In this document: positions 25,573-59,432 of the stretch, one piece after another
How the letters are laid out: the number at the start of each line of letters is the position of its first letter
Numbering within the stretch: position 1 is the stretch's first letter
NCBI RefSeq assembly: GCF_003075435.1
Contig: NZ_QCZJ01000018.1
Location: forward strand, 1-64,000
Length of the DNA: 64,000 nucleotides
DNA from: Terrimonas sp.
Lineage (GTDB): Bacteria; Bacteroidota; Bacteroidia; Chitinophagales; Chitinophagaceae
Reading direction: 5' to 3'
Notes under the pieces: model-generated
Told to the model about the DNA's origin: nothing
Databases searched by the model: none
Seen by the model: the letters and a program-made list of their open reading frames with translations, nothing else
Program-made: the position numbers and the translations under genes

Positions 25573-25620
25573 TCAAGCGTGAAATGTGAGACGTGAAAGT
25601 TTATCTTACGTCTCACGTTT
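25573..25620. repeat. Heptamer-period intergenic repeat, locus 1
   Basis: Units of seven bases (CGTGAAA, TGTGAGA, CGTGAAA) are followed by an inverted arm TTACGTCTCACGTTT, so the whole can fold back. It lies between the convergent genes ending at 25548 and 25747. See the heptamer finding. Confidence 0.6.
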
Positions 25621-25658
25621 ATCGGCAATGTACCGGCATACTTTAGCTGACATAACAT

Positions 25659-25702
25659 TATAATATAAAAGCCACTTCATTGAAAGTGGCTTTTATATTA
25701 TA
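25659..25702. terminator. Bidirectional terminator between convergent genes
   Basis: A 19-bp perfect stem with arms 25659-25677 and 25684-25702 (TAATATAAAAGCCACTT core) and a 6-nt loop. AAAA/TTTT within the arms gives a U-tract in both directions. It serves the DUF1080 gene from the left and the permease gene from the right. Confidence 0.85.
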
Positions 25703-25746
25703 GTAATTGATATGAAAACTTATATCCTGTTCATACAACACTTTGC

Positions 25747-27390
25747 TTATTTCTTTCTTATCCTCGATATATACAACAGTGCATGTACTGCTGCAAATAT
25801 CAATGAAAAGTAAAACAAGCCTGTATCTTCTCCTTTGGTTTGATCATGATGTATAAAGGCAATTACAGCAAGTGATAATGCCAATATTAAACCTGTAATT
25901 CCAACCACTTTATTTCCCTGCGGAACAGTTTTGGGCGAACCAGAAGAAAGGTGACTATGTTTTACACCATACCATAAGTAAATATCAAATCCTATGATCA
26001 TCCATACGATCAAACGGATCCATGTATCCAATGGTAGAAACGCCATCATAAAAAAGCAGGTTGCCACGCCTAATATAGGTACAATGGGAACGAGCGGTGT
26101 TTTAAATGCCCTGGGCGCATCAGGCATTTTTACCCTCATCACCCACACGCCAATACACACCAGTATAAACGCAAATAGTGTTCCTATACTCGTCATCTCT
26201 CCTACCACACGGGCAGGCACAAACGCGGCAAACAAACTTACAAACAGCATAAACATAAGGTTACTGCGTGCCGGCGTTTGAAATTTAGGATGAACATTTG
26301 AAAACACTTTTGGCAGCAAACCATCTTTACTCATACTGAAAAATACACGGCTTTGTCCCAGCAGCATCACCAATATTACAGAAGCGTAACCTGCAAGAAT
26401 GGCAACAATAATTGCCCTGTTAAGCCAGGGATAATCCGGGTGAATAACACCGGAAGCGTCGGCTGTGCCCATATGTTCAATTGCCACGGCAACCGGCGCT
26501 ATACCATCCTGCCCTTTAAAAGAAGTATAGTTGGTAACACCTGTCATTACGTGAGCAAAAAGCAAATAGAGCACAGTACAAATTACAAGTGAGCCTAAAA
26601 TGCCGATCGGCATATCACGCTTAGGATTTTTGGCTTCCTGCGCAGCGGTACTCACCGCATCAAAGCCTATATAGGCAAAAAATACTATGGCGGCTGCCCG
26701 TATTATTCCACTGAAACCATATTCCCCAAAAGTGCCGGTATTCTTAGGTATATAAGGCACATAGTTATCATTGTTGATATACTTCCATCCTAAAAAAATA
26801 AATATTAAAACAACCGCAACTTTCAACGCTACAATAACCGCATTAACGGTTGCACTTTCCTGCGTTCCTTTAATCAATAGCAAACTCATTAACACAACTA
26901 TAAAAACAGCAGGTAAATTTATAATACCGCCGTCCCATGGTCCAACGGTAAAAGCAGGTGAAAGGTGTACATCAAAACCTTCTAAAAATTTAATGAGATA
27001 GCGGCTCCAGCTTATACTTACCGTTGCTGCGCCCACAGCATACTCCAGCACAAGGTCCCAACCAATGATCCATGCAATAAATTCGCCCATTGTAGCATAG
27101 CTGTATGTATAAGCACTGCCTGCAACAGGTATCATTGATGCAAATTCTGCATAGCACAATCCTGCAAAAGCACAACCTAATGCAGCAACAACAAATGAAA
27201 TGGTAATAGCCGGGCCGGCCTGGTTAGCAGCAGCCCCGCCGGTAATAGAAAATAATCCCGCGCCAATAATTGCTCCAATACCAAGTGCAACAAGCGACCA
27301 GGGACCAAGGGTACGTTTTAAACTATGCGAACCGGTTTCTTCTGCTTCCGCAATTAGTCCGGCAAGGGGTTTCTTTGCAAATAAACTCAT
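25747..27390 (-). CDS. APC-family amino acid permease
   Basis: 547 residues with 12 or more membrane helices. Helix 1 has the APC substrate-site motif GIGAIIGAGLFSITGG, followed by AGPAITISFVVAALGCAFAG and YAEFASMIPVAGSAYTY. This matches the cationic amino acid transporter branch (YfnA/CAT-like). The C-terminal extension holds extra helices. It acts in the inner membrane by proton- or gradient-driven uptake; the substrate cannot be told from sequence. It is divergent from the symporter gene at 27553. Confidence 0.92.
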   Translation of the reverse strand: MSLFAKKPLAGLIAEAEETGSHSLKRTLGPWSLVALGIGAIIGAGLFSITGGAAANQAGPAITISFVVAALGCAFAGLCYAEFASMIPVAGSAYTYSYATMGEFIAWIIGWDLVLEYAVGAATVSISWSRYLIKFLEGFDVHLSPAFTVGPWDGGIINLPAVFIVVLMSLLLIKGTQESATVNAVIVALKVAVVLIFIFLGWKYINNDNYVPYIPKNTGTFGEYGFSGIIRAAAIVFFAYIGFDAVSTAAQEAKNPKRDMPIGILGSLVICTVLYLLFAHVMTGVTNYTSFKGQDGIAPVAVAIEHMGTADASGVIHPDYPWLNRAIIVAILAGYASVILVMLLGQSRVFFSMSKDGLLPKVFSNVHPKFQTPARSNLMFMLFVSLFAAFVPARVVGEMTSIGTLFAFILVCIGVWVMRVKMPDAPRAFKTPLVPIVPILGVATCFFMMAFLPLDTWIRLIVWMIIGFDIYLWYGVKHSHLSSGSPKTVPQGNKVVGITGLILALSLAVIAFIHHDQTKGEDTGLFYFSLIFAAVHALLYISRIRKK

Positions 27391-27552
27391 ACGCCAGTTA
27401 TATTTTTTATGAATGAAATTGAAAAGTAAACATTTCTCCCCAAAACCAATAAAAAGATGGTGATTTTGTGACTATGATCAGCAAAAAAAAACAATTATTG
27501 TTCATTTGCAATAACTTTCTGTTAGTTTTGAAACTTTACCAGCTTTTATTAT

Positions 27553-29025
27553 ATGAATAGACGTACTGTTGGTTTTCTATCGCTGGCAATATTCACCGTT
27601 GTCGCTATACTTCATTTTATTCATTTTGAAAATTGGATAACCCTACCTGAACAATTGCTGTTTATAAGCAGGTGGATAGTAATTGTAAGTCTTGTTGTAT
27701 TTGCGCTGTATAAAAAATCGCTTACTACCTGGATACTTGTTGCTATGGCTGTGGGTGTGGAGCTTGGACTTGATTTTCCTGCGTTCACACTTAACCTGCA
27801 GTTCTTAAGTAAAATTTTCCTGAGGCTGGTAAAAACGATTGTGGCTCCCTTGTTGTTTTCCACGCTGGTGGTTGGCATAGCCAGTCATTCTAATTTAAAA
27901 CAGGTAGGCCGCATGGGCTGGAAATCAATTTTGTATTTTGAGGTGGTTACTACTTTCGCGCTTGTTATAGGCATTATTTTTATCAATATCACCAAAGCCG
28001 GCGAAGGTATTACGGTTCCTGAAAAACTGCTGAAAGAACTGCCGCATTCATCAGAAAAGCAGATGCAGGAAAAAATGATAGCGGTATTAGACAGCGCTCA
28101 TATTGCACACCCGCCGGACCTGCTTCAGCGGCTGCCTGATGCAGCCCCTAAAACATGGCAGGATCATATATTGGATATATTTCCTGAAAACATCATTAAA
28201 TCCATATACGAAGGAAATGTTTTGCCTATAGTATTTTTCAGTCTGGTATTTGGTATCTCGCTTGCCATGCTGAGCGAACAGAAAAAAAGGCCTTTGCTTG
28301 AATTTACGGAAAGCCTGTCGGAAACGATGTTTAAATTTACCAACATCATTATGTACTTCGCGCCCTTTGGTGTGGGCGCGGCTATTGCGGTTACTGTTGG
28401 TCATTTAGGTATTGATATATTAAAAAATCTCTTTCTTTTATTACTTACATTATACCTGGCGCTGTTTGCATTTTTGCTGCTGGTTTTACTGCCCATTGCT
28501 TTATTCATAGCAAAAATTCCTGTTAAAAAATTTATACAGGCAGTTAAAGAACCTGCTTCCATCGCTTTTGCAACAACCAGTTCGGATTCAGCCCTGCCTA
28601 TTGCTTTGGAAAACATGGAAAAGTTTGGCGTTCCAAGAAAAATAGTTTCGTTCGTAATTCCTACCGGTTATACGTTCAACCTGGATGGTACTACATTATA
28701 TCTCTCACTTGCTTCCATATTTGTAGCGCAGGCTGCCGGCATACAGCTCACTTTTGGCGAGCAATTCATGATCGGGCTTTCGCTGATGCTTACCAGCAAA
28801 GGCGTAGCCGCCGTGCCAAGAGCATCGCTGGTAATATTAATTGCAACTGCAGCAACCTTTAAATTTCCGCTTTGGCCAATAATGGCTATTTATGGTATTG
28901 ATGAGCTGATGGATATGGCAAGAACTTCTGTAAATGTTATCGGTAACACATTAGCCAGTTGTGTAATTGCCCGTTCAGAAGGAGAATTTGACGACCAGAA
29001 AGCCCTTGCTTTTGAAGCGGAATAA
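27553..29025 (+). CDS. DAACS-family dicarboxylate/amino acid symporter
   Basis: 490 residues, eight membrane helices plus two re-entrant hairpins. The serine-rich hairpin AFATTSSDSALP, the FNLDGTTLY helix-7 motif and helix 8 MDMARTSVNVIGN are present. The substrate-binding Asp, Arg, Thr and Asn of helix 8 are kept. The Asp that ends this motif in GltPh (NVTGD) is Asn here, and NMDGT is NLDGT, both at cation sites, so coupling may differ. A long N-terminal two-helix extension (1-70) and a loop at about 145-205 are additions. Confidence 0.9.
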   Translation: MNRRTVGFLSLAIFTVVAILHFIHFENWITLPEQLLFISRWIVIVSLVVFALYKKSLTTWILVAMAVGVELGLDFPAFTLNLQFLSKIFLRLVKTIVAPLLFSTLVVGIASHSNLKQVGRMGWKSILYFEVVTTFALVIGIIFINITKAGEGITVPEKLLKELPHSSEKQMQEKMIAVLDSAHIAHPPDLLQRLPDAAPKTWQDHILDIFPENIIKSIYEGNVLPIVFFSLVFGISLAMLSEQKKRPLLEFTESLSETMFKFTNIIMYFAPFGVGAAIAVTVGHLGIDILKNLFLLLLTLYLALFAFLLLVLLPIALFIAKIPVKKFIQAVKEPASIAFATTSSDSALPIALENMEKFGVPRKIVSFVIPTGYTFNLDGTTLYLSLASIFVAQAAGIQLTFGEQFMIGLSLMLTSKGVAAVPRASLVILIATAATFKFPLWPIMAIYGIDELMDMARTSVNVIGNTLASCVIARSEGEFDDQKALAFEAE

Positions 29026-29135
29026 TAATAAAGTGTTAACAAACAATAATTATTATTAAAAGAAACTCAGCAAAAGAGCGGCAAATTACCATAGAAATTG
29101 CATTTTTGCGGCCGATAGTATATCAATAATAATTT

Positions 29136-30104
29136 ATGATTAAAAGAATTTGTAGTCTGGCGATATTTATGCTCATGGGATGCATGGTAATAGCGCAGGA
29201 AGAAATTAACGTTCAGTTTATTAATCAATATGGAGAGGGATTAACAACCGTTGTGGTTTCCCAGGGTGGAAAAGAAACAACGTACACTCCGGATAAAGCA
29301 GGATTTACCGGCATTACCATTAATAATACTGACTCCATAATGGTAAGCGCTGATGGCTTTGAAACAGTTTCAACCAATGTTGCTGCATTACAGGCAAAAC
29401 CTGTGGTAAATCTTCATAAAAAATTTACATGGAAGGATCTGCTCAATCCAAAGTTTTATATTATAAATGGAGGCTTTTGGTTGCTGCTTTTTATTGTTTT
29501 TGCGGAAACAGGATTGTTTGTCGGTTTCTTTCTGCCAGGCGATAGTCTCCTGTTTGTTGCAGGTATTTATAGCAGCGATCTGATGCATGAGTTTTATGAG
29601 GCTATAGGCATTGAAAGATTTCAGAATGAATGGGTAGATCTTTTTTTGCTGGTCGGGCTTATATCATTGATGGGTATTATCGGTAATATGCTGGGGTATT
29701 GGTTCGGAAGAAAGATCGGGCCATCCATGTTTCACTGGAAAGACCGTTTTCTTTTTAAGAAAAAATATTTGCATGATGCGCACGACTTTTTTGAAAAACA
29801 TGGTGGCGGCGCAATAGTGTTTGCACGTTTCTTACCCATCATACGCACTTTCGCTCCTATTGTGGCAGGTATAGTAAATATGGACAGGAAAAAATTCATG
29901 TTCTATAATATTATAGGTTGTATAGCATGGGTGATAAGCATGATATTTGCCGGGCACTTTTTGCAAATATGGGTAAGAAAACAATTTGGATTTGAATTGC
30001 AGGATCACCTTGAAGCTATAGTAATTGTAATTGTGCTGGTAACAACATTACCGGTGTTCTGGAAATTATTTTTTGGAAAGAAAAAAGAAAAAACCGCCCA
30101 ATAA
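29136..30104 (+). CDS. DedA-family membrane protein with exported N-terminal domain
   Basis: 322 residues. A signal peptide (ending GCMVIAQ) precedes a small beta-sandwich-like domain (about 20-88, INVQFINQYGEGLTTVVVSQ), then the DedA/VTT part: ETGLFVGFFLPGDSLLFVAG, then GNMLGYWFGRKIG, then FARFLPIIRTFAPIVAG, the hallmark Arg and Pro residues of the family. DedA proteins move or flip lipids such as undecaprenyl phosphate. The extra exported domain is not part of ordinary DedA proteins of about 200 residues. It is 12 nt upstream of the MFS gene, probably co-transcribed. Confidence 0.9.
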   Translation: MIKRICSLAIFMLMGCMVIAQEEINVQFINQYGEGLTTVVVSQGGKETTYTPDKAGFTGITINNTDSIMVSADGFETVSTNVAALQAKPVVNLHKKFTWKDLLNPKFYIINGGFWLLLFIVFAETGLFVGFFLPGDSLLFVAGIYSSDLMHEFYEAIGIERFQNEWVDLFLLVGLISLMGIIGNMLGYWFGRKIGPSMFHWKDRFLFKKKYLHDAHDFFEKHGGGAIVFARFLPIIRTFAPIVAGIVNMDRKKFMFYNIIGCIAWVISMIFAGHFLQIWVRKQFGFELQDHLEAIVIVIVLVTTLPVFWKLFFGKKKEKTAQ

Positions 30105-30116
30105 AAACTCCATTTC

Positions 30117-31349
30117 ATGTCTCAGCCAAAAACGAATGCTTCCATTTTTAATGTAGCCGTACTTGTAGCCGCATTAGGATATTTTGTAGATATATATGAT
30201 CTGCTGCTGTTTGGTATTATACGTGTGCCCAGCTTAAACGATATGGGACTATCCAGTGAGCAAATTTTAACTGATGGGGAAGGTATTCTTACCTGGCAGA
30301 TGTGGGGCTTGCTGATTGGCGGTATTATATGGGGTGTAATGGGCGATAAAAAAGGGAGGTTGAGTGTATTGTTTGGTTCTATTATATTATACTCGCTTGC
30401 CAATATTGCCAATGGTTTTGTGCAAACAGTAGACCAGTATAAACTCATACGTTTTGTTGCAGGCATAGGTCTAGCAGGAGAGCTGGGCGCAGGTATAACA
30501 CTTGTTTCTGAATTAACAGCCAAAGAAAAAAGAGGCATTGCTACTTCACTTGTTGCAGGCATAGGACTTACCGGTGCTGTGGTGGCATTTATAATGAAAG
30601 AAAATTTTCACTGGCGTACCTGCTATTTTATTGGCGGAGGACTGGGATTATTACTGCTTTTATTACGCATATCTGTTTTTGAATCCGGCATGTTTCATAA
30701 GGCAAAAGAAATGGATGTACAGCGTGGAAATCTCCTGATGTTCTTTACAAACCGCGACAGGTTCAGGCGATACATAACCGGCATACTCATCGGTTTACCA
30801 ACATGGTTTGTTATTGGTGTGCTTGTAACATTTTCAAGTGAGTTTGGAAAACAAATGGGCATTACGGAAAAAATTGATCCGGGTAAGTCTATAATGTATG
30901 CATATGCGGCTATCTCGCTTGGAGACATTGCTATAGGTTTTGTAAGTCAATGGATGAGAAGCAGAAAACAGGCGTTGTTTTTGTTCTACGCTATCACGGC
31001 AGTATTCATGGTACTGTATTTCACAACGCAATGGGGTGGCTCTGCCAGCAGAATGTACTGGATATGCGCCGGGCTTGGTTTCGGCACAGGCTTCTGGGCT
31101 ATATTTGTTACAATGGGTGCCGAACAATTTGGCACCAATATAAGAGCCACGGCTGCTACCACTATTCCCAATATGGTGCGTGGTATGCTCGCAATATTTA
31201 TTCTTCCCTTATTTCAATGGCTACGGGGCATTACCGATAGCTACTATACCGGTGGATGGATAACAGCGATTATTATTATGGCAATCGGTACCCTCGCGAT
31301 AATACTTACTAAAGAAACCTTTGGAAAGGACCTGAATTATGTGGAGTAG
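30117..31349 (+). CDS. MFS transporter
   Basis: 410 residues with 12 predicted membrane helices. The MFS loop 2-3 motif appears as GVMGDKKGRLSVLFGS (about residues 79-94), and the second half carries GFWAIFVTMGAEQFGTNIRA, which resembles sugar/organic-acid porters. It sits in the inner membrane. The substrate is unknown. Its start is 12 nt after dedA, so the two are likely one operon; a heptamer repeat hairpin follows it. Confidence 0.88.
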   Translation: MSQPKTNASIFNVAVLVAALGYFVDIYDLLLFGIIRVPSLNDMGLSSEQILTDGEGILTWQMWGLLIGGIIWGVMGDKKGRLSVLFGSIILYSLANIANGFVQTVDQYKLIRFVAGIGLAGELGAGITLVSELTAKEKRGIATSLVAGIGLTGAVVAFIMKENFHWRTCYFIGGGLGLLLLLLRISVFESGMFHKAKEMDVQRGNLLMFFTNRDRFRRYITGILIGLPTWFVIGVLVTFSSEFGKQMGITEKIDPGKSIMYAYAAISLGDIAIGFVSQWMRSRKQALFLFYAITAVFMVLYFTTQWGGSASRMYWICAGLGFGTGFWAIFVTMGAEQFGTNIRATAATTIPNMVRGMLAIFILPLFQWLRGITDSYYTGGWITAIIIMAIGTLAIILTKETFGKDLNYVE

Positions 31350-31355
31350 TTTAGT

Positions 31356-31452
31356 TACAGGCTTTTAGTTTGTAGTTTATAGTTTGGTTTGGGTTATAAA
31401 CCACAAACCATAAACTAAAAACCCCACTCAAATTTCAAATCTCCAATCTCCC
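31356..31452. repeat. Heptamer-period intergenic repeat, locus 2
   Basis: Units such as TTTGTAG, TTTATAG and TTTGGTT in the left arm are mirrored by ACAAACC, ATAAACT in the right arm, giving an imperfect 28-bp hairpin (about 31361-31421). A second class follows, which on the minus strand reads GAGATTG, GAGATTT, GAAATTT. It lies between the MFS gene and the GT9 gene. Confidence 0.65.
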
Positions 31453-31471
31453 GTTTTACCTTCGCTGAACC

Positions 31472-32530
31472 ATGCCTGTAACGCCTGAACAAATTATTGC
31501 TAAAGGATCTGCATTTAAGGGAAGAGAAAAGATCAAAATTCTAGTCATCCGCCTTTCTTCCATAGGCGATATTGTTTTAACAACACCAGCCATACGCTGC
31601 CTGAAACAACAAATGCCAGGAATAGAACTGCATTTTCTTACCAAACAAAAGTTCAGGGCTGTTACCATTGCCAATCCGTATATTGACAAGTTCCATTATT
31701 TTGGCAAAGATTTTTCCCAAACCATCAAAGCGATAAGGGAAGAACAATTTGACTATATTATTGACCTGCATAAAAACCTGAGGACGTTAAGGCTATATCT
31801 TGAAACAGATACAAAAACAAAATGGTATAGCTACCGGAAGCTTAGTCTTCAAAAATTTTTGCTTACAAAGTTTGGCATCAATGCCATGCCGGGTATTCAC
31901 ATCAGTCAACGAAGCCTGAACACTTTGAAACCACTGGGCATAAAAGACGACGGCAAAGGATTAGATTATTTTATTCCTGCAGAGGAATATATTAAAAAAG
32001 ACGACCTGCCCATGTCGCACCGTATGGGATATATTGCTGTTGTTATCGGCGCATCTTACTATACCAAAAAACTACCTGTTGAAAAACTAAAACAACTGTG
32101 CGGTAATATTCAGCATCCGATTATACTGGTAGGCGGCAAAGAAGATATTCCTGAAGGAGATGCGATAGCCACCGTTGACCCGGTTAAAGTATATAATGCC
32201 TGTGGTAAATTTTCGCTTAATGAATCTGCTGATATTGTAAGACAGGCAAAGCTTATCGTATCTCACGACACAGGTTTCCAGTATATCGCCTGCGCTTTTC
32301 AGAAAAAAGTATTGGCAGTATGGGGCGGAACATCACCTAAATTAGATGTAGAGCCATATTACGGAAGCGCAATGCAACCCAGGTATACCAATTATATTGT
32401 TCCGGGCTTAAAATGCCAGCCCTGTTCAAACTACGGCACAAAAACCTGCCCCAAAAAGCATTTTAAATGTATGCAGTTGCAGGATATGGACGCGATGACC
32501 AGGGAAGTAATGAAAGATTGCGGACTTTGA
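31472..32530 (+). CDS. Glycosyltransferase family 9 (heptosyltransferase-like)
   Basis: 352 residues, GT-B fold. The N-terminal ILVIRLSSIGDIVLTTPAIR motif and the C-terminal VSHDTGFQYIACAFQKKVLA, then VWGGTSP motif are those of LPS heptosyltransferases. Such enzymes add a sugar to the lipopolysaccharide core at the cytoplasmic face. The C-terminus has a Cys cluster (CQPCSNYGTKTCPKKHFKC), common in this subfamily. A TACCTTCG box (31457-31464) eight nt before the ATG is a likely -7 element, so the leader would be very short. Confidence 0.9.
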   Translation: MPVTPEQIIAKGSAFKGREKIKILVIRLSSIGDIVLTTPAIRCLKQQMPGIELHFLTKQKFRAVTIANPYIDKFHYFGKDFSQTIKAIREEQFDYIIDLHKNLRTLRLYLETDTKTKWYSYRKLSLQKFLLTKFGINAMPGIHISQRSLNTLKPLGIKDDGKGLDYFIPAEEYIKKDDLPMSHRMGYIAVVIGASYYTKKLPVEKLKQLCGNIQHPIILVGGKEDIPEGDAIATVDPVKVYNACGKFSLNESADIVRQAKLIVSHDTGFQYIACAFQKKVLAVWGGTSPKLDVEPYYGSAMQPRYTNYIVPGLKCQPCSNYGTKTCPKKHFKCMQLQDMDAMTREVMKDCGL

Positions 32531-32689
32531 TGAACAACCTTTTCCCTAAAGGATGAAAAACCTGTTGAGATTTGCAACAATATTATTTACTGAATGACAG
32601 CCATGTAAATGCATCAATAATAACCGGTTTTACAGGTTCACGGCTTTATCCATTTGATCAAAATTATATTACCTTCCATAGATATATTT

Positions 32690-33166: not shown

Positions 33167-33233
33167 TATCTATACAAACGTATCAAAAAAATTGTGCGTA
33201 TGTAGTAAGCAACCGCTATAAAAAATGTCCTAT

Positions 33234-33761: not shown

Positions 33762-33770
33762 TAAACAACG

Positions 33771-36425: not shown

Positions 36426-36532
36426 GGCTCTAAATATCTTTAATAAAAAATCATATAGCGGCAAATTAACTGATAAAGCATTTAATCTGAAATAATTCTG
36501 AATTCGCAATGACAGGAAGTAACAACAAAAAG

Positions 36533-39213: not shown

Positions 39214-39250
39214 ATATACATTAATCAGTATAATTAATAGTGTAAAAAAC

Positions 39251-42967: not shown

Positions 42968-43061
42968 ACAAGTTTGTGGTTTGTAGTTTATAGTTTGTAG
43001 TTTATGGTTTGTAGTCTTTCAACTATAAACAAAGAACCATAAACCATGAATTGCTTATCGC
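42968..43061. repeat. Heptamer-period intergenic repeat, locus 3
   Basis: Between leuA/cimA and leuB. The left arm consists of seven-base units TTTGTGG, TTTGTAG, TTTATAG, TTTGTAG, TTTATGG, TTTGTAG. The right arm reads ACTATAAAC and ACCATAAACC, complementary to the left units. It interrupts the leu operon without an obvious terminator tail. Confidence 0.7.
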
Positions 43062-45312: not shown

Positions 45313-45320
45313 AAAAGATT

Positions 45321-45388
45321 GCTGATTTGAGATTCGAAATTTGAGATTTACCACTGAAAGCTGACCGCTGATGGCTGATAGCTAATTA
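45321..45388. repeat. Heptamer-period intergenic repeat, locus 4
   Basis: Two unit classes stand in a row between leuC and leuD: TTTGAGA, TTCGAAA, TTTGAGA, TTTACCA, and then GCTGACC, GCTGATG, GCTGATA, GCTAATT. It fills nearly the whole intergenic space inside an operon. Confidence 0.65.
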
Positions 45389-45397
45389 CCCTTAGCC

Positions 45398-49907: not shown

Positions 49908-49958
49908 GTCGGCAACAGATTTTTATATAAGTTTTGATTACACTACATATCTGTTATA

Positions 49959-49966
49959 TACATTTG
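49959..49966 (+). promoter_or_regulatory. -7 promoter element of the DUF3467 gene
   Basis: TACATTTG at 49959-49966 matches TAnnTTTG and lies 14 nt before the ATG at 49981. TTTG at 49933-49936 is 22 nt upstream, slightly longer than the usual 19-21. Confidence 0.5.
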
Positions 49967-49980
49967 CACAAACTTCCATC

Positions 49981-50292: not shown

Positions 50293-50323
50293 GAATACAC
50301 ATTATTTAATGCCTACGTATCTT

Positions 50324-51268: not shown

Positions 51269-51332
51269 AAAACCATGTCAGAATCAGGGTAAATATGAGA
51301 TGCTAAAGCATCGAATTTTCACCTTTATCATC

Positions 51333-52520
51333 TCACTTTTCATACTCCTCAAGCGCTTTCTCCAAGCAATCCATTGCATTGTTTATGGCATCCACATTCA
51401 GCACATAGGCAAAGCGTACTTCATTTTTTCCCAAACCGGGTGTGCTGTAAAAACCGGTTCCCGGCGCCATCATTACGGTCTGGTTATTGTATGAGAAGGA
51501 TTCGAGTATCCACTGGCAAAATTTATCACTATCATCAACCGGTAGCTTAGCCATCGCGTAAAAAGCACCGCCGGGATCCGGGCAAAAAACACCCGGTATA
51601 CCATTCAGCCTTTTTACAAGCGTATCTCTTCTTAATTTGTATTCCGCTTTTGTAGCGTCAAAATAATTATCAGGTAAATCAAGTGCAGCTTCCCCGGCAA
51701 TCTGACCAAAACCAGGCGGGCTTAACCTCGCCTGCGCAAACTTGAGCGCTGTTTCAATTACCTGCTTATTTTTTGTGATCATTGCTCCGATTCTTGCCCC
51801 GCAGGAACTATATCTTTTTGAAATGGTATCCAGCAGTATTACATTTTCTTCAATACCTTCTAAACGCATAGCGCTGAAATGCCCGCCTGCATAGCAAAAC
51901 TCGCGGTAAGCCTCATCTGAAAACAAAAACAGGTTATGCTTTTTTACTATTGTTTTAAGTATTTCCAATTCTTCGCGGCTGTATAAATACCCTGTAGGAT
52001 TATTGGGATTGCAGATTAAAATAGCCTTGGTGCGACTGGTGATCTTTTGCTCAAAATCCTCTATGGGAGGTAATGCAAAACCACTTTCAATAGAAGATGG
52101 AACAGGTATAACCTTTACCCCTGCTTCAATAGCAAAACCATTGTAATTAGCATAGAACGGCTCAGGTGTAATCACTTCATCACCGGCATCCATGCAGCTC
52201 ATCATGGCAAACAAGATAGCTTCAGAACCACCGGTGGTAATAATAATATCAGTATAATCAACAGTAATTTGTTGCTTTTGGTAATAACCTGTCAGCTTGC
52301 GGCGATAGCTTTCATTGCCTGCGCTATGGCTATATTCCAATATTTTAAAATTTGACCGCCGAACGGCATCCAATTCAAGCGCTGGTGTTTCTATATCAGG
52401 CTGGCCGATATTTAAATGATATACTTTAATTCCTTTCTGTTTTGCTTTTTCCGCATAAGGAACCAATTTTCTTATGGGAGAAGCGGGCATTACCCGCCCC
52501 CTGTTGCTGATGGATAACAT
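51333..52520 (-). CDS. Class I/II pyridoxal-phosphate aminotransferase
   Basis: 395 residues from the ATG at 52520; open codons before it run into the folD promoter. Fold-type I markers: HLNIGQPDIETP, TGGSEAILFAMMSC, AILICNPNNPTGYLYSREEL, LFSDEAYREFCY and the PLP lysine in DTISKRYSSCGARIG. It most resembles aspartate/alanine/aromatic aminotransferases; the substrate is not clear. A TATCTTTG box (52532-52525, minus) lies 4 nt before the start. Confidence 0.9.
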   Translation of the reverse strand: MLSISNRGRVMPASPIRKLVPYAEKAKQKGIKVYHLNIGQPDIETPALELDAVRRSNFKILEYSHSAGNESYRRKLTGYYQKQQITVDYTDIIITTGGSEAILFAMMSCMDAGDEVITPEPFYANYNGFAIEAGVKVIPVPSSIESGFALPPIEDFEQKITSRTKAILICNPNNPTGYLYSREELEILKTIVKKHNLFLFSDEAYREFCYAGGHFSAMRLEGIEENVILLDTISKRYSSCGARIGAMITKNKQVIETALKFAQARLSPPGFGQIAGEAALDLPDNYFDATKAEYKLRRDTLVKRLNGIPGVFCPDPGGAFYAMAKLPVDDSDKFCQWILESFSYNNQTVMMAPGTGFYSTPGLGKNEVRFAYVLNVDAINNAMDCLEKALEEYEK

Positions 52521-52542
52521 ATTACAAAGATATGATTTGCCT

Positions 52543-52573
52543 TTTGATCTTTGGGTTTTCAATTCTACCTTTG
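52543..52573 (+). promoter_or_regulatory. folD promoter
   Basis: TTTG (52543-52546), 19 nt, TACCTTTG (52566-52573): an exact match to the Bacteroidota consensus. The folD ATG begins 4 nt later, so the message would be leaderless or nearly so. It overlaps the first 60 nt upstream of the divergent aminotransferase gene. Confidence 0.8.
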
Positions 52574-52577
52574 CGCC

Positions 52578-53450
52578 ATGCAAATACTGGATGGTAAATT
52601 AGTTTCACAGGCTGTAAAGGATGACCTGAAAAAGAAAGTAGATACACTTAAGCAGGAAGGTAAAAAAACGCCACACCTCGTGGCTATATTAATTGGTACC
52701 AATGGCGCCAGCGAAACTTATGTGGCTTCAAAAGTAAAAACCTGCGGGGAAATAGGTTTTGAGTCTACATTGATCCGCTATGAAGATACCATAGATGAAG
52801 CCACTTTATTAAAAAAGATTGAGGAACTAAATGCGGACGCCGCTATTGACGGTATACTGGTTCAGCTACCGCTTCCCAAACAGATTTCGGAAGAAAAGGT
52901 AATCAATGCCATTGCCGCTGAAAAAGATGTAGACGGTTTTCATCCTTCCAATATAGGCAAAATGGTGCAGGGGCAACCTGCCTATATCCCTGCCACACCC
53001 TATGGCATTTTATTATTGCTAGAGCATTATAATATTGAAACCAAAGGCAAACACGCTGTGGTGATCGGCAGAAGTAATATTGTGGGCAGACCAATGAGTA
53101 TTCTGCTGAGCCAGAATACGGCAACTGGCAATTGCACGGTAACTTTATGCCACTCGCATACAAAAAACATGAAAGAAATTTGTTTGCAGGCCGATATTAT
53201 CGTTGCCGCTTTAGGTAAACCGGAGTTTCTGAAAGCGGATATGGTAAAAGAAGGCGCAGTGGTAATTGATGTAGGTATTACAAGAGTAGAAGACAAAACC
53301 AAAAAGAAAGGATACGCTATTAAAGGCGATGTGGATTTTGAAGCTGTAGCCCCTAAATGCAGTTATATAACCCCTGTACCTGGTGGTGTAGGTGCTATGA
53401 CCATTGCCGCACTGATGAAAAACACATTGCTTGCAGCGGAAGGAAAGTGA
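52578..53450 (+). CDS. folD: Bifunctional methylene-THF dehydrogenase / methenyl-THF cyclohydrolase
   Basis: 290 residues from ATG 52578, placed right after the promoter; an upstream in-frame TTG is rejected. Folate-site markers: [34 protein letters not shown], the Rossmann [17 protein letters not shown] and the C-terminal [19 protein letters not shown]. It interconverts one-carbon tetrahydrofolates in the cytoplasm. Confidence 0.96.
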
Positions 53451-53456
53451 AAAGAT

Positions 53457-53577
53457 TTGAAATTTGAGATTGGGGAAAGTTTGTGGTTTGCAGTTTATGG
53501 TTTAAAGTTGACGTAGTATATCGTTACCCTTAAACTGAAAACCTGAAACTTCAAACCCAAAACCTGTAACTTAAAAC
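53457..53577. repeat. Heptamer-period intergenic repeat, locus 5
   Basis: Between folD and queE. The left part has GATTTGA, AATTTGA, GATTGGG and then TTTGTGG, TTTGCAG, TTTATGG. The right part read on the minus strand has AGTTACA, GGTTTTG, GGTTTGA, AGTTTCA, GGTTTTC. Again the arms are roughly complementary and the unit is seven bases. Confidence 0.7.
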
Positions 53578-53582
53578 AAAAC

Positions 53583-54242
53583 GTGCGTTTGGAAACAGTA
53601 GTTGATATAGAAAAACAAACGCTTCCTGTAATGGAGGCATTTTACACATTGCAGGGCGAAGGTATGCACCAGGGTAAGGCTGCGTATTTTATACGGCTTG
53701 GCGGTTGCGATGTGGGCTGTGTTTGGTGTGATGTAAAAGAAAGCTGGAATGCAAATGCCCATCCGCAAAAAGAAACTTACACTATTATTACAGAAGCATT
53801 GAAGGAAATTCCCGGGCAATGCGCTTCTCCTCAAAACAATAATGTAATTGCTGTGGTTACCGGTGGCGAACCTTTAATGCATCATCTCGATGAATTAACT
53901 ACTTCATTAAAGCAAGCTGGATTCAGAACACATATTGAAACTTCGGGAAGCAGCCCTTTGTCCGGAACCTGGGACTGGATTTGCTTATCACCCAAAAAAT
54001 TTAAAGCACCATTGCCTGAAATACTTTCGCAAGCGGATGAATTGAAAGTAGTGGCATATAATAAATCTGATTTTAAATGGGCTGAGCAGTTTGAAAAACA
54101 GGTAAGCAGTAAATGCAAATTGTATCTTCAGCCGGAATGGAGCAAAGCACAGGTTATGACACCACTTATTATAGCATATATTAAGGAACATCCGCAATGG
54201 CAACTCAGCCTGCAGGTACATAAATATCTTAATATTCCTTAA
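53583..54242 (+). CDS. queE: 7-carboxy-7-deazaguanine synthase
   Basis: A radical SAM enzyme of queuosine/7-deazapurine synthesis. 219 residues from GTG 53583; ATG 53631 would remove a conserved N-terminal strand. FYTLQGEGMHQGKAAYFIRL and GGCDVGCVWCDVKESW supply the CxxxCxxC cluster ligands. VTGGEPLMHHLDEL is the GGE motif. No other que genes are in the window. Confidence 0.93.
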   Translation: MRLETVVDIEKQTLPVMEAFYTLQGEGMHQGKAAYFIRLGGCDVGCVWCDVKESWNANAHPQKETYTIITEALKEIPGQCASPQNNNVIAVVTGGEPLMHHLDELTTSLKQAGFRTHIETSGSSPLSGTWDWICLSPKKFKAPLPEILSQADELKVVAYNKSDFKWAEQFEKQVSSKCKLYLQPEWSKAQVMTPLIIAYIKEHPQWQLSLQVHKYLNIP

Positions 54243-54329
54243 TCATTTACCATTAGGTAATTGTAAAGATCATTTTCTGTTTCATTTTTCTTTACCAATC
54301 ACTCGAAAAATTCAACCGTTTGCTCAATG

Positions 54330-54445
54330 TTTTAAGAATCTTAAAACTTCGTCTATACATTTACGACAGATATCAAATTAAAAAAACGGGACGGTTAATA
54401 TATAACACCAGGGTACAACGGCGGCAGCAAATGCCGCCTTTTTTT
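54330..54445 (+). ncRNA. Possible small RNA with palindrome and terminator
   Basis: In the 438-nt gap after queE, TTTTAAGA-A-TCTTAAAA (54330-54346) is a near-perfect palindrome, followed by about 75 nt of unremarkable sequence and a strong terminator: GGCGGCA/TGCCGCC stem (54420-54438) with seven T. The stem is separated from queE by 178 nt, far for a simple gene end, so a short independent transcript is possible. No confirmed promoter. An open frame of 79 codons here (54320) looks like chance. Confidence 0.3.
54420..54445 (+). terminator. Intrinsic terminator
   Basis: A 7-bp GC-rich stem GGCGGCA/TGCCGCC with a 5-nt loop and seven consecutive T. It ends either the queE transcript or a separate small RNA. 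Confidence 0.85.
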
Positions 54446-54680
54446 GTAAAAGCTCTTTTGAAGAATTGCATCGAAAATGTACCCGGCAGCTTTTATCATC
54501 CGATAAAATACATATTCCGCAAAAAATATTATGCTCTTGTTATTTCGCCGGATAGTTAAAAATTCCGGTTAAGATGCGCTATACTTTCGATAAGCAAATA
54601 TCAGGGTTAAAGAAGAGGAAATCGCCATTACAATATGCAATATATACCCCCGTTTACTTGTCCAACATTTATTCTGATCC

Positions 54681-55178
54681 ATGAAAACATTTCTTTTTAT
54701 CACGTTGTTCTCGTTTACTTTCTTTTCATGCAAAAAAGAAAACAGTGCTACTGACACAGCATTACATCCGATAGAATACAACGAAAGCAGAAACATCATC
54801 GGCGAATACAGAGGTGCATTTTCCTGGTCAAAAACAAATAGCGAAACCATACAGCAAAAAGCTATAGAAAACCAGGAAGGAACATTTTCAATTAAGTATA
54901 TTGAAAAAAATCAACTGGAAATCATTTCCAATATTTCTTCTGATTTGAAATATAAAACTTATGAAATGAGGTTGTTTAAAGTCAGCCAGGCAAATGACCA
55001 TATTGAATATTATTTTACCGGGAAAGCAAAAGACTATTCCGAAAATATAAACAGCTATGCGGAAATGTCTTTACAAACCTATGAAGGGAAAAATATATTT
55101 TCCTTTTATGGCTGTAATTCATTTGATGGCATAAGCAATGAAGCTTTGCACATTTTTGATGCAACCTTAGTGAGATAG
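54681..55178 (+). CDS. Small lipoprotein
   Basis: 165 residues. The N-terminus KTFLFITLFSFTFFSCKKEN is a lipoprotein signal with the lipobox Cys at residue 17, so it would be anchored in an envelope membrane. The rest is a soluble beta-rich domain (GEYRGAFSW, then GTFSIKYIEKNQLEIIS) reminiscent of lipocalin-like Bacteroidota lipoproteins. Function is unknown. Confidence 0.75.
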   Translation: MKTFLFITLFSFTFFSCKKENSATDTALHPIEYNESRNIIGEYRGAFSWSKTNSETIQQKAIENQEGTFSIKYIEKNQLEIISNISSDLKYKTYEMRLFKVSQANDHIEYYFTGKAKDYSENINSYAEMSLQTYEGKNIFSFYGCNSFDGISNEALHIFDATLVR

Positions 55179-55225
55179 GTTACAAAAGTTGAAGAATCAC
55201 AAAACCCGTTATACTTTTTACAAAT

Positions 55226-56203
55226 TTATATTGCGGCTGCTCTCTGTTTACCTGCGATATCAGCTATAATAATATCCGCATGTTCCCTTGAGTTTTCAAT
55301 AAACCAGGTATGTGTATCCATGCCCCCGCAAACCACACCGGCCAGGTAGATATTTTTCATATTACTTTCCATAGTTAATGGATCATATGTCGGTTTTAAT
55401 ATGTCATCATCAGATAAAGTAATGCCTGCCTTTTTCAAAAAATCAAATTGCGGTTGATAACCTGTTGCAGCAATTACATAATCATTCGGAATGGTAACCA
55501 TACCGTCAGGTGTTTTTATATCAACCCTGTCTTCATAAATAGCTGATAAAGTTGAATTGAAAAAAGCTTTGATGCTTCCTTCGGCGATCCGGTTTTCTAT
55601 ATCAGGCTTCACCCAATATTTAACCCTTTTTCCTATTTCATTTTGTTTAATAACCATTGTTACATCTGCTCCCTTGCGATAGGTTTCCAACGCCGCGTCT
55701 ACCGCGGAATTATTAGCGCCCACCACCACTACTTTTTGCATAGCGTAAAAATGAGGCTCCTTGTAGTAATGGGTTACTTTAGGCAGCGTTTCTCCGGGTA
55801 TATTCATCAATACCGGCAAATCATAAAACCCGGTTGCAATAACGATGTATGTTGAAATATACTTTTCTCTTGTTGTAGTGATTTCATAACCTCCGTTTAC
55901 AGGCACAATAGATTGTACCTTTTCCTGCAGGCGTACATTCAGGTCATTAGCCAAAGTAACACGCCTGTAATATTCTAATGCTTCGTTGCGGGTAGGTTTT
56001 GAAGCGATGGAAACAAACGGCACTCCTCCTATCTCCAGCTTTTCAGATGTAGAGAAGAATGTCATGTTATAGGGATAATTGTAAAGCGAATTAACAAGAC
56101 AACCTTTTTCAAGTACACAATATTCCAGGCCGTGCTTCTTAGCTTGCAGTGCACAGGCCAGTCCTATAGGTCCTCCGCCAATAATGATAATATCAAGCTT
56201 CAT
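55226..56203 (-). CDS. ypdA: YpdA-family bacillithiol-disulfide reductase-like flavoprotein
   Basis: 325 residues. FAD site DIIIIGGGPIGLACALQAKK (residues 4-23), NADPH site VVVVGANNSAVDAALETYRK, and a C-terminal FAD motif MKNIYLAGVVCGGMDTHTWF. There is no redox CxxC, as in YpdA. It reduces bacillithiol disulfide in Firmicutes and is common in Bacteroidota. Its partners bshA-C are not in the window. Confidence 0.9.
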   Translation of the reverse strand: MKLDIIIIGGGPIGLACALQAKKHGLEYCVLEKGCLVNSLYNYPYNMTFFSTSEKLEIGGVPFVSIASKPTRNEALEYYRRVTLANDLNVRLQEKVQSIVPVNGGYEITTTREKYISTYIVIATGFYDLPVLMNIPGETLPKVTHYYKEPHFYAMQKVVVVGANNSAVDAALETYRKGADVTMVIKQNEIGKRVKYWVKPDIENRIAEGSIKAFFNSTLSAIYEDRVDIKTPDGMVTIPNDYVIAATGYQPQFDFLKKAGITLSDDDILKPTYDPLTMESNMKNIYLAGVVCGGMDTHTWFIENSREHADIIIADIAGKQRAAAI

Positions 56204-56333
56204 GTAATATCCTCTTTTAGATTAAAATAATTCCTGTAAACCTATGCAGGGAGCGCCTATAGGTTGCAATCAATATTGTTTGCAAAGGTATGATCAAAAA
56301 AAACGCTATTTTCAACTTATTAAAACCCCTTTT

Positions 56334-57257
56334 ATGAGCGAATTTTTTAACTATGCCTGGATACTGGTTATTATCATCATCATTTTTAGTGGTTTGGTTA
56401 CCGTTAACCAGGGCACTATTTCAGTTATTACCATGTTTGGAAAATACAGGCGTATACTTAAGCCCGGATTGAATTTTAAAATCCCTCTATTAGAACAGAT
56501 ATACCGTCGTGTTTCTATACAAAACCGTTCGGTTGAAATGGAATTTCAGGCCGTAACATCTGACCAGGCAAATGTGTACTTTAAAAGCATGCTGCTGTAT
56601 GCCGTACAAAACGCGGAAGAAGAAACCATAAAAAAAGTAGCCTTTAAATTTATCAGCGAGCGTGACCTTATGCAGGCGCTCACCAGAACCATTGAAGGAA
56701 CAATACGCTCCTTTGTTGCTACAAAAAAGCAGGCAGAAATATTAGGGCTACGCAAAGAAATTGTGGAATATGTAAAGGAGCAAATCGACCACCTGCTGGA
56801 AGACTGGGGCTATCATTTATTAGACCTCCAGATCAATGATATTACTTTTGATAAAATGATCCTGGATAGTATGAGTAAAGTGGTTGCCAGCAATAACCTG
56901 AAAGCTGCTGCTGAAAATGAAGGGCAGGCTTTGCTCATCACCAAAACAAAATCTGCGGAGGCAGAAGGTAATGCCATTAAAATAGCTGCAGAAGCAGAAA
57001 GACAGGCAGCACAGCTTCGTGGACAGGGTGTGGCGTTATTCCGCGAAGAAGTAGCAAAAGGTATGAGCCAGGCTGCGGAGCAAATGAAACAGGCAAACCT
57101 TGACACTAATGTAATTCTATTCAGCATGTGGACTGAAGCCATTAAAAACTTTGCTGAAGTTGGTAAAGGCAATACCATTTTCCTGGATGGCAGCAGCGAG
57201 GGTATGCAAAAAACAATGAAACAGATATTGAGTTTAATGAACCCGGATAAGCAGTAA
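56334..57257 (+). CDS. SPFH/band-7 (stomatin-like) membrane protein
   Basis: 307 residues from ATG 56334; 30 open codons upstream are not conserved-looking. One N-terminal membrane helix (YAWILVIIIIIFSGLVTV) precedes the SPFH domain (TISVITMFGKYRRILKPGLN to RDLMQALTRTIEGTIRSFVA) and a long Ala/Glu-rich coiled coil (about 200-270). It would oligomerise in the inner membrane as a scaffold. No NfeD partner is adjacent. Confidence 0.9.
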   Translation: MSEFFNYAWILVIIIIIFSGLVTVNQGTISVITMFGKYRRILKPGLNFKIPLLEQIYRRVSIQNRSVEMEFQAVTSDQANVYFKSMLLYAVQNAEEETIKKVAFKFISERDLMQALTRTIEGTIRSFVATKKQAEILGLRKEIVEYVKEQIDHLLEDWGYHLLDLQINDITFDKMILDSMSKVVASNNLKAAAENEGQALLITKTKSAEAEGNAIKIAAEAERQAAQLRGQGVALFREEVAKGMSQAAEQMKQANLDTNVILFSMWTEAIKNFAEVGKGNTIFLDGSSEGMQKTMKQILSLMNPDKQ

Positions 57258-57301
57258 GTTTCTCTTTCCGGGTGTGTGCATAACCTTAAATGAAAATAAT
57301 A

Positions 57302-57338
57302 AGAACCCTTTTACTGCCTGGTCCAGTAAAAGGGTTCT
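57302..57338 (-). terminator. Terminator overlapping the TIR gene end
   Basis: A perfect 15-bp stem, arms 57302-57316 and 57324-57338 (AGAACCCTTTTACTG type), loop 7 nt. The right arm encodes the last residues (EPFYW) of the TIR protein and the stop codon lies in the left arm. On the minus strand TATTATTTTC follows. It can also end the convergent SPFH transcript. Confidence 0.75.
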
Positions 57339-58342
57339 GTATATGAAGCCCCATTATTGGTGATTATAAATTTTCCGTTTAAAACATTATTATCCCCCGG
57401 AACGGCGGCTGAGCCGGATATAACGCCAACATTATAAAGTTGAACTTTAAAGTTAATGTTGTTGCCATCAATAGTCCCCACGCCTTCTCCTGTAGTAATA
57501 CCAGCCACACTTACACTTTTCAGTTCCAGCGTATTACCTGATTGAGTAATGTACATGGTATATTGATTAGCAGCATCATACCATGCACCACCCACGTTTG
57601 CGGGAATATCAGCAATTTTCTCTTCCTGCACCGGTTCAGGGTCTTTAACAACTATATTCGGATTGGATTTATTATTGTTTGACTTTGGCGAATCATAAGC
57701 CGGATTATCAGTAACTATCTTTTCCCGGGCTTTGGTACCGCGTGTTGTTTCAAACATTAGCACAGCTATTACTACCACAGCTAAACCAATCAATCCATAA
57801 ATAAGCCATTTACCAATACCACCATTTTGCGCTGGCAATGGTATATCCACCTTTTTAGGTTTAAATCCTATTTGCTTTAAAAAGTTTATTAACTGGTCTG
57901 TATCGTACTTCCAGCGCTTATTGCTGATCTCATAAGTTTGCCTGTTCAGCAAAGGATATAACGATTCAGGCAATTCTTCAGGCTGGGGAAGAGAAGCGTC
58001 ACGTACCAGGACAGGAATTACACGGATATCTCTTTTAAGCGCTGTTTCCAGTTCAATCCTCACCCAGTCTTCTGATTGCCTGATACGGGGATTACCATTT
58101 TTATCTGTGCCAATCCATCCGGGTCCGATAACCGCAAAAAGTACATCGCATGTTTCGAGAGATTTTGCAAGCGCTACCCTGAAATCAACGCCTGGTTCCA
58201 GCTTTTCAATATCCATGAATATCTGGTCTTCAGAAAAAACCTGTTTCAGCGAATCTACAAGCCGGCCGGTATCCGCTGCTGTATCCTGTACACGATAGCT
58301 TATGAATATCTTTTTCCGTTGGGAGGTTTGCGGTGAAGGCAT
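57311..58342 (-). CDS. TIR-domain protein with transmembrane helix and C-terminal beta domain
   Basis: 343 residues. The TIR domain (about 10-160) starts KKIFISYRVQDTAADTGRLV and contains DIEKLEPGVDF; W93 and E97 in EDWVRIELETAL match the position of the catalytic Glu of NAD-consuming TIR domains. A membrane helix follows (179-197), then a basic/Asn-rich linker and an exported-looking beta domain (about 250-343, NVGGAWYDAANQYTMYITQS). The TIR part would be cytoplasmic and the C-domain periplasmic, a receptor-like layout. Whether it is an NADase or a defence protein is open. Confidence 0.85.
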   Translation of the reverse strand: MPSPQTSQRKKIFISYRVQDTAADTGRLVDSLKQVFSEDQIFMDIEKLEPGVDFRVALAKSLETCDVLFAVIGPGWIGTDKNGNPRIRQSEDWVRIELETALKRDIRVIPVLVRDASLPQPEELPESLYPLLNRQTYEISNKRWKYDTDQLINFLKQIGFKPKKVDIPLPAQNGGIGKWLIYGLIGLAVVVIAVLMFETTRGTKAREKIVTDNPAYDSPKSNNNKSNPNIVVKDPEPVQEEKIADIPANVGGAWYDAANQYTMYITQSGNTLELKSVSVAGITTGEGVGTIDGNNINFKVQLYNVGVISGSAAVPGDNNVLNGKFIITNNGASYTEPFYWTRQ

Positions 58343-58851
58343 TAATGTTATTTAATTGGTTTAATAAGTTGAAAAAGCCGGAGTTTACACAGATATGCGT
58401 GGTTCATTTATAGGGAACGTAAATGAAAGCTAATTTACGCAGTCGTAATGGATATTCTATAATTTTTGTTGAAAGAGAAACCAGGCAGGAATATCAAAAA
58501 GAAAAAGCATCAAGTTTTGTATTGCTTCCGGCTTTCGCCTTTATCATACTTAACCCGATGCTTTCGTGAGAGGCTTCCATCTTCTGACGGATTTCCGCTT
58601 CTCTATGCTACTATTTCTGTTTCCAGATATCGTAGCGTTTGTTCATTAAAGATACTATTATGATCAGGCGTTTTCCAAATTTTTCCCCTGTTTAATATGC
58701 ACCCTGTACGCACATAGTTATGCACCGGAAATGCAATAAAATCAGTGGTTAAGAACAGGTTCAGCACATTTTAGCTGTCAGCTATCAGGTATCAGCTACG
58801 GCTCAAACCTGTAATTTGTAACCTGAAACCTGTAACCTGTAACCCAGCTTA
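58343..58851. other. 509-nt intergenic region
   Basis: No convincing gene. A 65-codon plus-strand frame (58466-58663) has an atypical Arg/Ser/Leu composition and no family. A heptamer repeat occupies the last part (58768-58850) and is listed separately. Nothing else is visible. Confidence 0.4.
58768..58850. repeat. Heptamer-period intergenic repeat, locus 6
   Basis: Two unit classes in a row: AGCTGTC, AGCTATC, AGGTATC, AGCTACG and then ATTTGTA, ACCTGAA, ACCTGTA, ACCTGTA. It lies just downstream of the yajQ stop. Confidence 0.7.
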
Positions 58852-59343
58852 TTAAGAACGCATATTCTCATATTGCAGTGGAATTTCCAGTCCCCAGCCT
58901 TTAGACGCCTGTATTAAAGCCTGCAGGTCATCTATTTTTTTACCGGTCACTCTTACCAGGTCATCATTAATAGAAGCCTGTACCTTAAGCCCTGAATCTT
59001 TGATGTGTTTTACAATTTTTTTTGCGTCTTCCTGCTTCAAACCATTCCTGACCAATACTTCTTTCTTCCATATCTTACCACTTTGAGCGCCTTCTTTTGA
59101 GAGATCGAAGGCTTCCGGGGCTATACCCTGTTTATGTGCACGGCTAACCAACACATCCAGCAACTGCCGCATCTGCATATCTCCGTCTGTTTCGAGATTC
59201 AGCTTATATTCTTTTTTATTGAGATCAATCACAACATGAGCATCCTTGAAATCAAAGCGGTTGGTAATTTCTTTCCTGGTAACATTCACTGCATTATCCA
59301 GCGCCTGTGCATCTACTTTACTTACAATATCAAATGAAGGCAT
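58852..59343 (-). CDS. yajQ: YajQ-family nucleotide-binding protein
   Basis: 163 residues, the full length of the family. Typical start PSFDIVSKVDAQALDNAVNV, then KEITNRFDFK, and the C-terminal DDLVRVTGKKIDDLQALIQ. Two ferredoxin-like halves bind nucleotides; some members bind cyclic di-GMP. Cytoplasmic. It is divergent from the MBL-fold gene at 59448. Confidence 0.95.
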   Translation of the reverse strand: MPSFDIVSKVDAQALDNAVNVTRKEITNRFDFKDAHVVIDLNKKEYKLNLETDGDMQMRQLLDVLVSRAHKQGIAPEAFDLSKEGAQSGKIWKKEVLVRNGLKQEDAKKIVKHIKDSGLKVQASINDDLVRVTGKKIDDLQALIQASKGWGLEIPLQYENMRS

Positions 59344-59407
59344 AACAAAAGTTTAAAAAACAAAAATAATGAAATGCGCTTATTTTGATACATCAAAAAT
59401 TCCATTG

Positions 59408-59432
59408 CGAACCGGTAACTTGCAACCTGCAT
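59408..59432. repeat. Short heptamer-period repeat, locus 7
   Basis: Seven-base units AACCGGT, AACTTGC, AACCTGC lie between yajQ and the MBL-fold gene. It is shorter and weaker than the other loci but of the same ACCTGTA class. Confidence 0.45.

Follow-up and report, generated by a model that had tools for sequence, protein, structure and literature searches.

Seven-nucleotide repeats between genes of a Terrimonas genome as probable hairpin arms of elements resembling rRNA intervening sequences

Results

The stretch of DNA analysed here (the window) comprises 64,000 nucleotides (nt) of Terrimonas sp. (NCBI RefSeq assembly GCF_003075435.1, contig NZ_QCZJ01000018.1, positions 1 to 64,000), which is contig C18 of a genome of 6.18 Mb in 82 contigs that we label G000, and the subject of this work is a set of intergenic sites in it that are built of degenerate seven-base units. 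On balance, these sites are probably the hairpin arms of elements that resemble the intervening sequences (IVSs) of 23S rRNA, lie mostly between co-directional genes, and form a stem that RNase III probably cuts in mRNA. Arms of the same kind flank genes of the family PF05635 (four-helix bundle, S23, 23S rRNA intervening-sequence protein), and the repeats are therefore tied to ribosomal intervening sequences.

Periodic arrays between genes

Periodicity was scored as autocorrelation at a given lag in 864 kb of G000, in which genes were called by a simple longest open reading frame (ORF) scheme and of which the 160 kb outside contig C1 and the window were chosen mostly for holding or neighbouring matches to the GTTTRTR class of unit. 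The intergenic gaps held 55 arrays at lag 7 compared with a mean of 0.8 in 20 shuffles, ruling out chance as their source; the harmonics appeared as 44 arrays at lag 14 and 20 at lag 21, the remaining lags between 4 and 22 gave 0 to 8 each, and a single lag-7 array fell in called genes. The period, which an initial annotation had noticed at several places in the window, is thus not confined to those places. That annotation had also sorted the units into a few classes; degenerate heptamer classes are indeed present, and the genome holds more of them than were named. The GTTTRTR class, searched for as GTTTRTRGTTTRTRGTTT, yielded 99 exact matches across the G000 genome and none for the reversed control. 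It is abundant in six of 11 congeners (10 to 104 matches) and absent or rare in the other five (0 to 4), and beyond the genus it was found in 2 of 26 genomes (6 and 3 matches), the reversed control itself matching four genomes once or twice.

In C1 and the window, arrays were found in 29 of 266 co-directional gaps, 3 of 78 convergent gaps and none of 93 divergent gaps; intrinsic terminators are disfavoured as an explanation because convergent gaps hold so few arrays compared with co-directional ones. Solo arrays that are closer to a downstream start contained more C than G in 21 of 27 cases, and those closer to an upstream stop were mixed (more G than C in 9 of 22).

Arrays beside PF05635 genes

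Matches to PF05635 occur in 34 of the 38 genomes of a set of relatives, and a wider set of 198 Bacteroidota genomes includes 157 with a match; this partner gene escaped the initial annotation because relatives are needed to see a gene between the arms. Lag-7 arrays lay within 200 nt of the PF05635 gene at 18 of 20 loci from the relatives and 13 of 30 from a phylum sample (in both sets each genome's best-scoring match, with no random draw), at 16 of 20 further copies (hand-picked from G000, G003, G004, G005, G008 and G009), and at 12 of 14 plasmid loci (14 of 21 matching records, 13 cyanobacterial and one from Azospirillum). Arrays at lag 8 adjoined 1, 2, 8 and 4 loci in the relatives, further copies, phylum sample and plasmids, respectively, and lags 5, 6, 9, 10 and 11 gave 0 to 2 each in the same four sets; counting lag 7 or 8, arrays were present at 18/20, 18/20, 21/30 and 14/14 loci. 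Among control families, lag-7 arrays were found beside 1 of 19 Y1_Tnp genes (24 loci less five that were too short; Fisher p=6e-8) and beside none of eight genes of the GxxExxY family (PF13366), a count that was also 0/8 at lag 7 or 8. GxxExxY genes were therefore rejected as a partner, the likeness between their flanks being mainly direct. At these eight loci (L149 to L156) direct-orientation likeness had a mean of 17.9 compared with 8.3 for other pairs, as a target duplication or a repeat-bounded insertion would give. Of 92 non-identical PF05635 ORFs, 70 share the direction of both neighbours, 11 oppose both, nine are mixed and two have no called downstream neighbour.

The abundance of arrays was also compared between genomes with and without PF05635 at an array threshold of 12. 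Five PF05635-free genomes yielded 1 array in 700 kb in total, compared with 84 in 1480 kb of seven PF05635-positive genomes (25 in the 600 kb of C1; 11, 8, 4 and 33 in 200 kb each; 3 and 0 in 40 kb each), a difference in density with a Mann-Whitney p of 0.009 for twelve genomes without phylogenetic correction. The scarcity of arrays in the PF05635-free genomes of this sample of twelve is suggestive of S23 acting in trans. Two single heptamer classes, each counted across the 198 genomes, matched seven genomes apiece and 12 distinct genomes together, 11 of which are PF05635-positive and one of which, G121, is not; set against 157 of 198 overall, these counts do not discriminate. The reversed control for these counts is itself 7-periodic and not neutral, having matched 13 times in G139, 14 times in G076 and a few times elsewhere. 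A GGTGTGR heptamer class has 37 matches in G149, and G149 and G139 appear to be further genomes with a heptamer dictionary of their own.

Complementarity and turnover of the arms

The two arms at PF05635 loci are mostly inverted and complementary. Complementarity to the own partner, compared with the partners of other loci, scored 13.95 vs 8.01 at 50 loci (permutation p≤1e-4, the own partner being the best in 19 of 50), 15.47 vs 8.58 at 20 further loci and 18.64 vs 9.27 at the 14 plasmid loci. In minimum-energy folds, the arms paired across the ORF by at least 15 pairs in 67 of 91 own combinations vs 81 of 182 swapped ones. A stem score of at least 12 was reached at 62 of 84 S23-flanking loci, and in these the 5' arm held more G than C in 58, equal numbers in three and less G in one; this polarity is uninformative on whether RNA or DNA is concerned, because, if the 5' arm of an inverted repeat is rich in G, both strands read G-first.

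Arms at a shared site differ in class between loci, yet each still matches its own partner. This was measured in 147 same-site pairs, which overlap in their loci and so are not independent: the stem score across loci was 16.1, 13.2, 11.3 and 8.2 (background 7.9) in bins of S23 identity from above 85% down to below 55%, and the own stem score over the same bins was 16.0, 16.4, 15.8 and 13.8. In 54 of 63 cases the nearest S23 relative occupied the same site; the PF05635 gene therefore persists in place for long periods, whereas its arms turn over.

The gaps that carry arrays in the window were compared with those of relatives; the LeuA of the window is closest to that of Chitinophagaceae metagenome-assembled genomes (MAGs; 93% identity) and is 87% identical to the LeuA of Lacibacter. 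Units and classes change between species at the same gap: the heptamer between leuC and leuD is GATGTCG in Lacibacter, GGTATAA in Agriterribacter, CAATAGG in Terrimonas and GACAGAT in a groundwater MAG, and in 22 Chitinophaga loci this gap measures 18 to 87 nt, does not exceed 42 nt in 19 of them, and never scores above 6.8 at lag 7. Between leuA and leuB, a PF05635 gene occupies 9 of 76 measurable gaps from 80 related loci, in operon sense in all nine; for the leu gaps, reading letter by letter covered the first 27 of these 80 loci, and the remainder were scored. One relative (L049) carries inserts of 707 and 604 nt in its leuC-leuD and leuA-leuB gaps, one of them with an ORF that looks GxxExxY-like by eye, and both gaps seem to be prone to insertion.

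The gap between argC and argD was read in 21 loci (30 ArgD loci were obtained, the best 23 were tried and two starts were not found). The gene with its arms is present in 8 of the 21 gaps, G008 and G009 carry arms of differing classes without the gene, and the gaps of G013, G022 and G030 measure 2 to 21 nt. Ten arm pairs cut by hand, from the eight gene-bearing loci and from G008 and G009, scored 15.1 with the own partner vs 7.5 with others (p=1e-4); this set excludes gaps that lack arms, as well as G000 and G004, in which the 5' arm is indistinct. In G009, G008, G000 and G004 (L208, L210, L211 and L216) this gap also holds a conserved stretch ending in ACGACGATG, with arm classes that differ, and the stretch is possibly a leader RNA or a small ORF.

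The same architecture in a 23S rRNA gene

The Azospirillum plasmid locus (L249), which carries no annotation in its record, matches the Rfam model LSU_rRNA_bacteria (large-subunit rRNA) over its whole length, at model positions 484-2053 and on the strand of its PF05635 ORF. Both of its arms are 7-periodic, and their inverted score is a modest 10.0. Among the loci examined, L249 alone was shown to lie in large-subunit rRNA. The published IVS of Coxiella burnetii has the same parts: an S23p ORF lies within a 28-bp inverted-repeat stem, RNase III cuts inside the stem, and three tandem GACAGAT heptamers, down to two in some strains, are present (PMC4990558).

The elements described here thus share with 23S rRNA IVSs a PF05635-type gene in an inverted-repeat stem and, in the Coxiella 5' arm, tandem heptamers whose number varies between strains; as a group, the PF05635 loci show the terminal inverted repeats and long stem of an IVS. 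Unlike those IVSs, they lie between protein genes, occur in large numbers within a genome (the 600 kb of C1 hold 25 lag-7 arrays), mostly lack an ORF, and have many heptamer classes with arms that turn over between species, and cutting by RNase III is proposed for them by analogy. Three cyanobacterial plasmid loci (L237, L244 and L246) have the PF05635 gene next to cas genes: it is flanked by cas6 and cas4 in two of them and by cas10 and a Cmr3-family gene in the third, with lag-7 arrays in the first two. This agrees with published descriptions of Avd and of 23S_rRNA_IVP genes in cas loci.

Sites in the window

Seven periodic intergenic sites had been proposed in the window. The lag-7 score of each was compared with 1000 dinucleotide shuffles of the same gap, and six of the seven exceeded their shuffles: p was 0.001 at 31356, 42968, 45321 and 58768, 0.015 at 53457 (where the scores at lags 14 and 21 exceed that at lag 7) and 0.033 at 25573, while 59408 fell within chance (p=0.11). 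The location of sites inside operons (leuC-leuD, leuA-leuB) was borne out, and inverted second arms and hairpins had been described at several sites: 25573, 31356, 42968 and 53457 fold, and 45321 hardly does. The features are as follows.

25578..25621, + strand: CGTGAAA-like hairpin; 15-bp stem 25582-25596 / 25606-25620, in the minimum-energy fold; convergent gap, 3' of a + strand gene that ends at 25548.
31363..31423, + strand: GTTTRTR array (31363-31385) with an inverted arm (31398-31423), in a gap flanked by two + strand genes; fold z -2.7.
31427..31451, + strand: TCAAATC-like second class, an A/C-rich arm alone, preceding a start at 31472.
42972..43050, - strand: solo hairpin with GTTTRTR / AAACYAY arms in the leuA-leuB gap; lag-7 score 25.8, fold z -2.5.
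45317..45386, - strand: CAGCTAT-class and then AATCTCA-class array (in operon sense) in the leuC-leuD gap; lag-7 score 16.8, strong hairpin absent, fold z -1.0.
53451..53577, + strand: ATTTGAA units, GTTTRTR arm and inverted AACCTGAAAC arm in the folD-queE gap; lag-21 score 16.2, fold z -3.3.
58773..58844, - strand: CAGCTAT and AACCTGT arrays directly after the stop of a DUF520 (YajQ) gene; lag-7 score 21.0.
59408..59432, no strand: three ACCTGTA-like units in a divergent gap, within chance.

The fold z of -7.3 at 25578..25621 covers an adjoining terminator-like hairpin as well: a strong perfect hairpin (AAAGCCACTTCATTGAAAGTGGCTTT) at 25650-25705, in the same convergent gap, which resembles an ordinary bidirectional terminator. 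The fold computed for the 58768 gap left out the 58773..58844 part. Pfam domains are consistent with leuA, leuB, leuC, leuD and folD, and the YajQ-like gene is DUF520; the names queE, YajQ, argC/argD, sdhA/sdhB, hisA/hisF, hemL and TIR, and likewise RAYT and STRR (the Calothrix heptamers mentioned below), are those that we assume to apply. The window elements sit between protein genes and not inside an rRNA gene, and their gaps are too short for the S23 ORF that large IVS forms hold in the loop; IVS forms without an ORF are known. Rfam covariance models run over the window and six S23 loci matched a tRNA-Pro as the sole hit, with no rRNA in the window, and this rules out a known Rfam RNA as the identity of these sites.

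Discussion

The full form of the proposed element would consist of a G-rich 5' arm in which units of 7 or 8 nt are repeated in tandem, a PF05635/S23 gene and an inverted 3' arm, and the commoner short form, which is the type seen in the window, of an arm, a short spacer and an arm without a gene, or at times of one arm; short forms may derive from full ones or depend on them. In the transcript, the arms would pair into a long stem, and, by analogy with 23S rRNA IVSs, RNase III would probably cut this stem, removing the insert and leaving the mRNA severed at that point. Slippage may add or remove tandem units, after which an arm could still pair in another register, and shifted pairing of this kind would preserve the stem through changes in the class of its arms.

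Several observations weigh against this interpretation. S23 keeps one site over long times, as the 54 of 63 same-site relatives indicate, which does not demonstrate mobility; the window elements are all without the gene, and G000 has six PF05635 matches and far more numerous arrays. An own stem score of at least 12 was reached in just 59 of 92 PF05635 loci, several of these loci show no arm pairing in the fold, and the arrays of L237 run in the same direction. The control families show a slight inverted excess of their own (GxxExxY 10.75 vs 8.73, p=0.03; Y1_Tnp 10.39 vs 8.04), and array gaps in G000 show a modest excess of folding (mean z -2.6, n=35, vs -1.3, n=60; p=0.0098). Among the genomes, G139 lacks arrays in 40 kb despite 13 PF05635 matches, although it has 13 hits to another 7-periodic pattern; G121, with one heptamer-class match, is outside the 157 PF05635-positive genomes. 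Finally, the authors of the Coxiella study consider that S23p is not made in vivo (PMC4990558).

A rather unlikely alternative is that the sites are plain long simple-sequence repeats, in which slippage favours 7-nt units, template switching tidies palindromes, no element or RNA role exists, and PF05635 merely tolerates the same gaps. Quasi-palindrome correction alone could keep two arms complementary, and the avoidance of called genes (one array) and the variable unit number agree with such an origin. Heptamers are reported to be over-represented among bacterial simple repeats (PMC4679880, PMC4692102), TAACTGA heptamer direct repeats are reported from Beggiatoaceae, cyanobacteria and five Bacteroidetes (PMC4679880), and GGGAATC repeats of Xanthomonas are described together with similar repeats of Nostoc and the heptamers of Calothrix (PMC4692102). 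The present arrays resemble these in their intergenic heptamer units; Xanthomonas has inverted pairs, and two Cyanothece strains differ mostly by 7-nt indels. Unlike the present arrays, they are not linked to PF05635 genes or IVSs in the accessible text of those descriptions, and our search of the open-licence literature, as far as its texts were available, returned no published link of four-helix-bundle, S23 or IVP genes to heptamer or intergenic repeats apart from the Coxiella IVS paper. The initial annotation, which knew heptamers from cyanobacteria and no such family from Bacteroidota, is corrected by the TAACTGA report, although that family is absent here: membership was rejected with 0 exact matches to TAACTGATAACTGA in the 6.18 Mb genome. 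The TAACTGA pattern has five matches in the window, all with two mismatches, compared with 0.6 expected, and two of them lie inside the 58773-58844 array. Simple repeats do not predict arrays beside PF05635 but not beside GxxExxY or Y1_Tnp genes, nor their near absence from PF05635-free genomes, nor the G-first polarity of 58 of 62 stems.

We regard it as unlikely that the sites belong to a DNA-level mobile element whose arms are terminal inverted repeats, whose PF05635 protein aids transposition or retro-mobility, and whose short forms are miniature inverted-repeat transposable elements. Full and short forms and shared operon sites would suit such an element, and some insertions are possibly independent, the S23 at the leu site of L051 being nearest to an S23 of another site. 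The Avd protein of diversity-generating retroelements is a four-helix bundle related to PF05635 (PMC10053308), and an S23 query matched PDB entries 2gsc and 2rld, five chains each. However, nearest relatives share a site in 54 of 63 cases, the data yielded neither a target duplication nor a clean empty/filled pair whose borders are exact, one S23 query gave 0 matches in 50,697 phage records, and the arm sequence is not conserved, unlike usual termini.

It is very unlikely that the arrays are the site of one protein; A/C-rich arms upstream of starts (C over G in 21 of 27) and the location inside operons would fit, but the class varies from gene to gene and between species at the same gene, and the inverted complementarity is left unexplained. 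Repetitive extragenic palindromic (REP) sequences and REPINs, which are spread by RAYT (Y1_Tnp) transposases, are likewise dispersed intergenic hairpins with short and gene-bearing forms, and Y1_Tnp genes occur in 32 of 38 genomes, but the arms here are tandem heptamers of changing class, no conserved palindrome was seen, and with arrays beside 1 of 19 Y1_Tnp genes this account was rejected as having next to no probability.

More tentatively than the IVS-like reading itself, and as a suggestion that may well prove wrong, the intergenic heptamers of Bacteroidota, cyanobacteria and perhaps Xanthomonas and Beggiatoaceae could form one superfamily with rRNA IVSs, in which an Avd-like S23 protein acting in trans would spread, maintain or process hundreds of ORF-less, RNA-removed hairpins in each genome, drawing on a dictionary of heptamers particular to that genome. 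If this is true, two puzzles would merge, namely the nature of the abundant heptamer repeats of bacteria and the origin of rRNA IVSs and their S23 protein. Many ordinary operon mRNAs would then bear IVS-like cut sites, which in Bacteroidota and cyanobacteria would affect stoichiometry and the processing of mRNA. The S23 family, which is of unknown function, would gain a candidate substrate.

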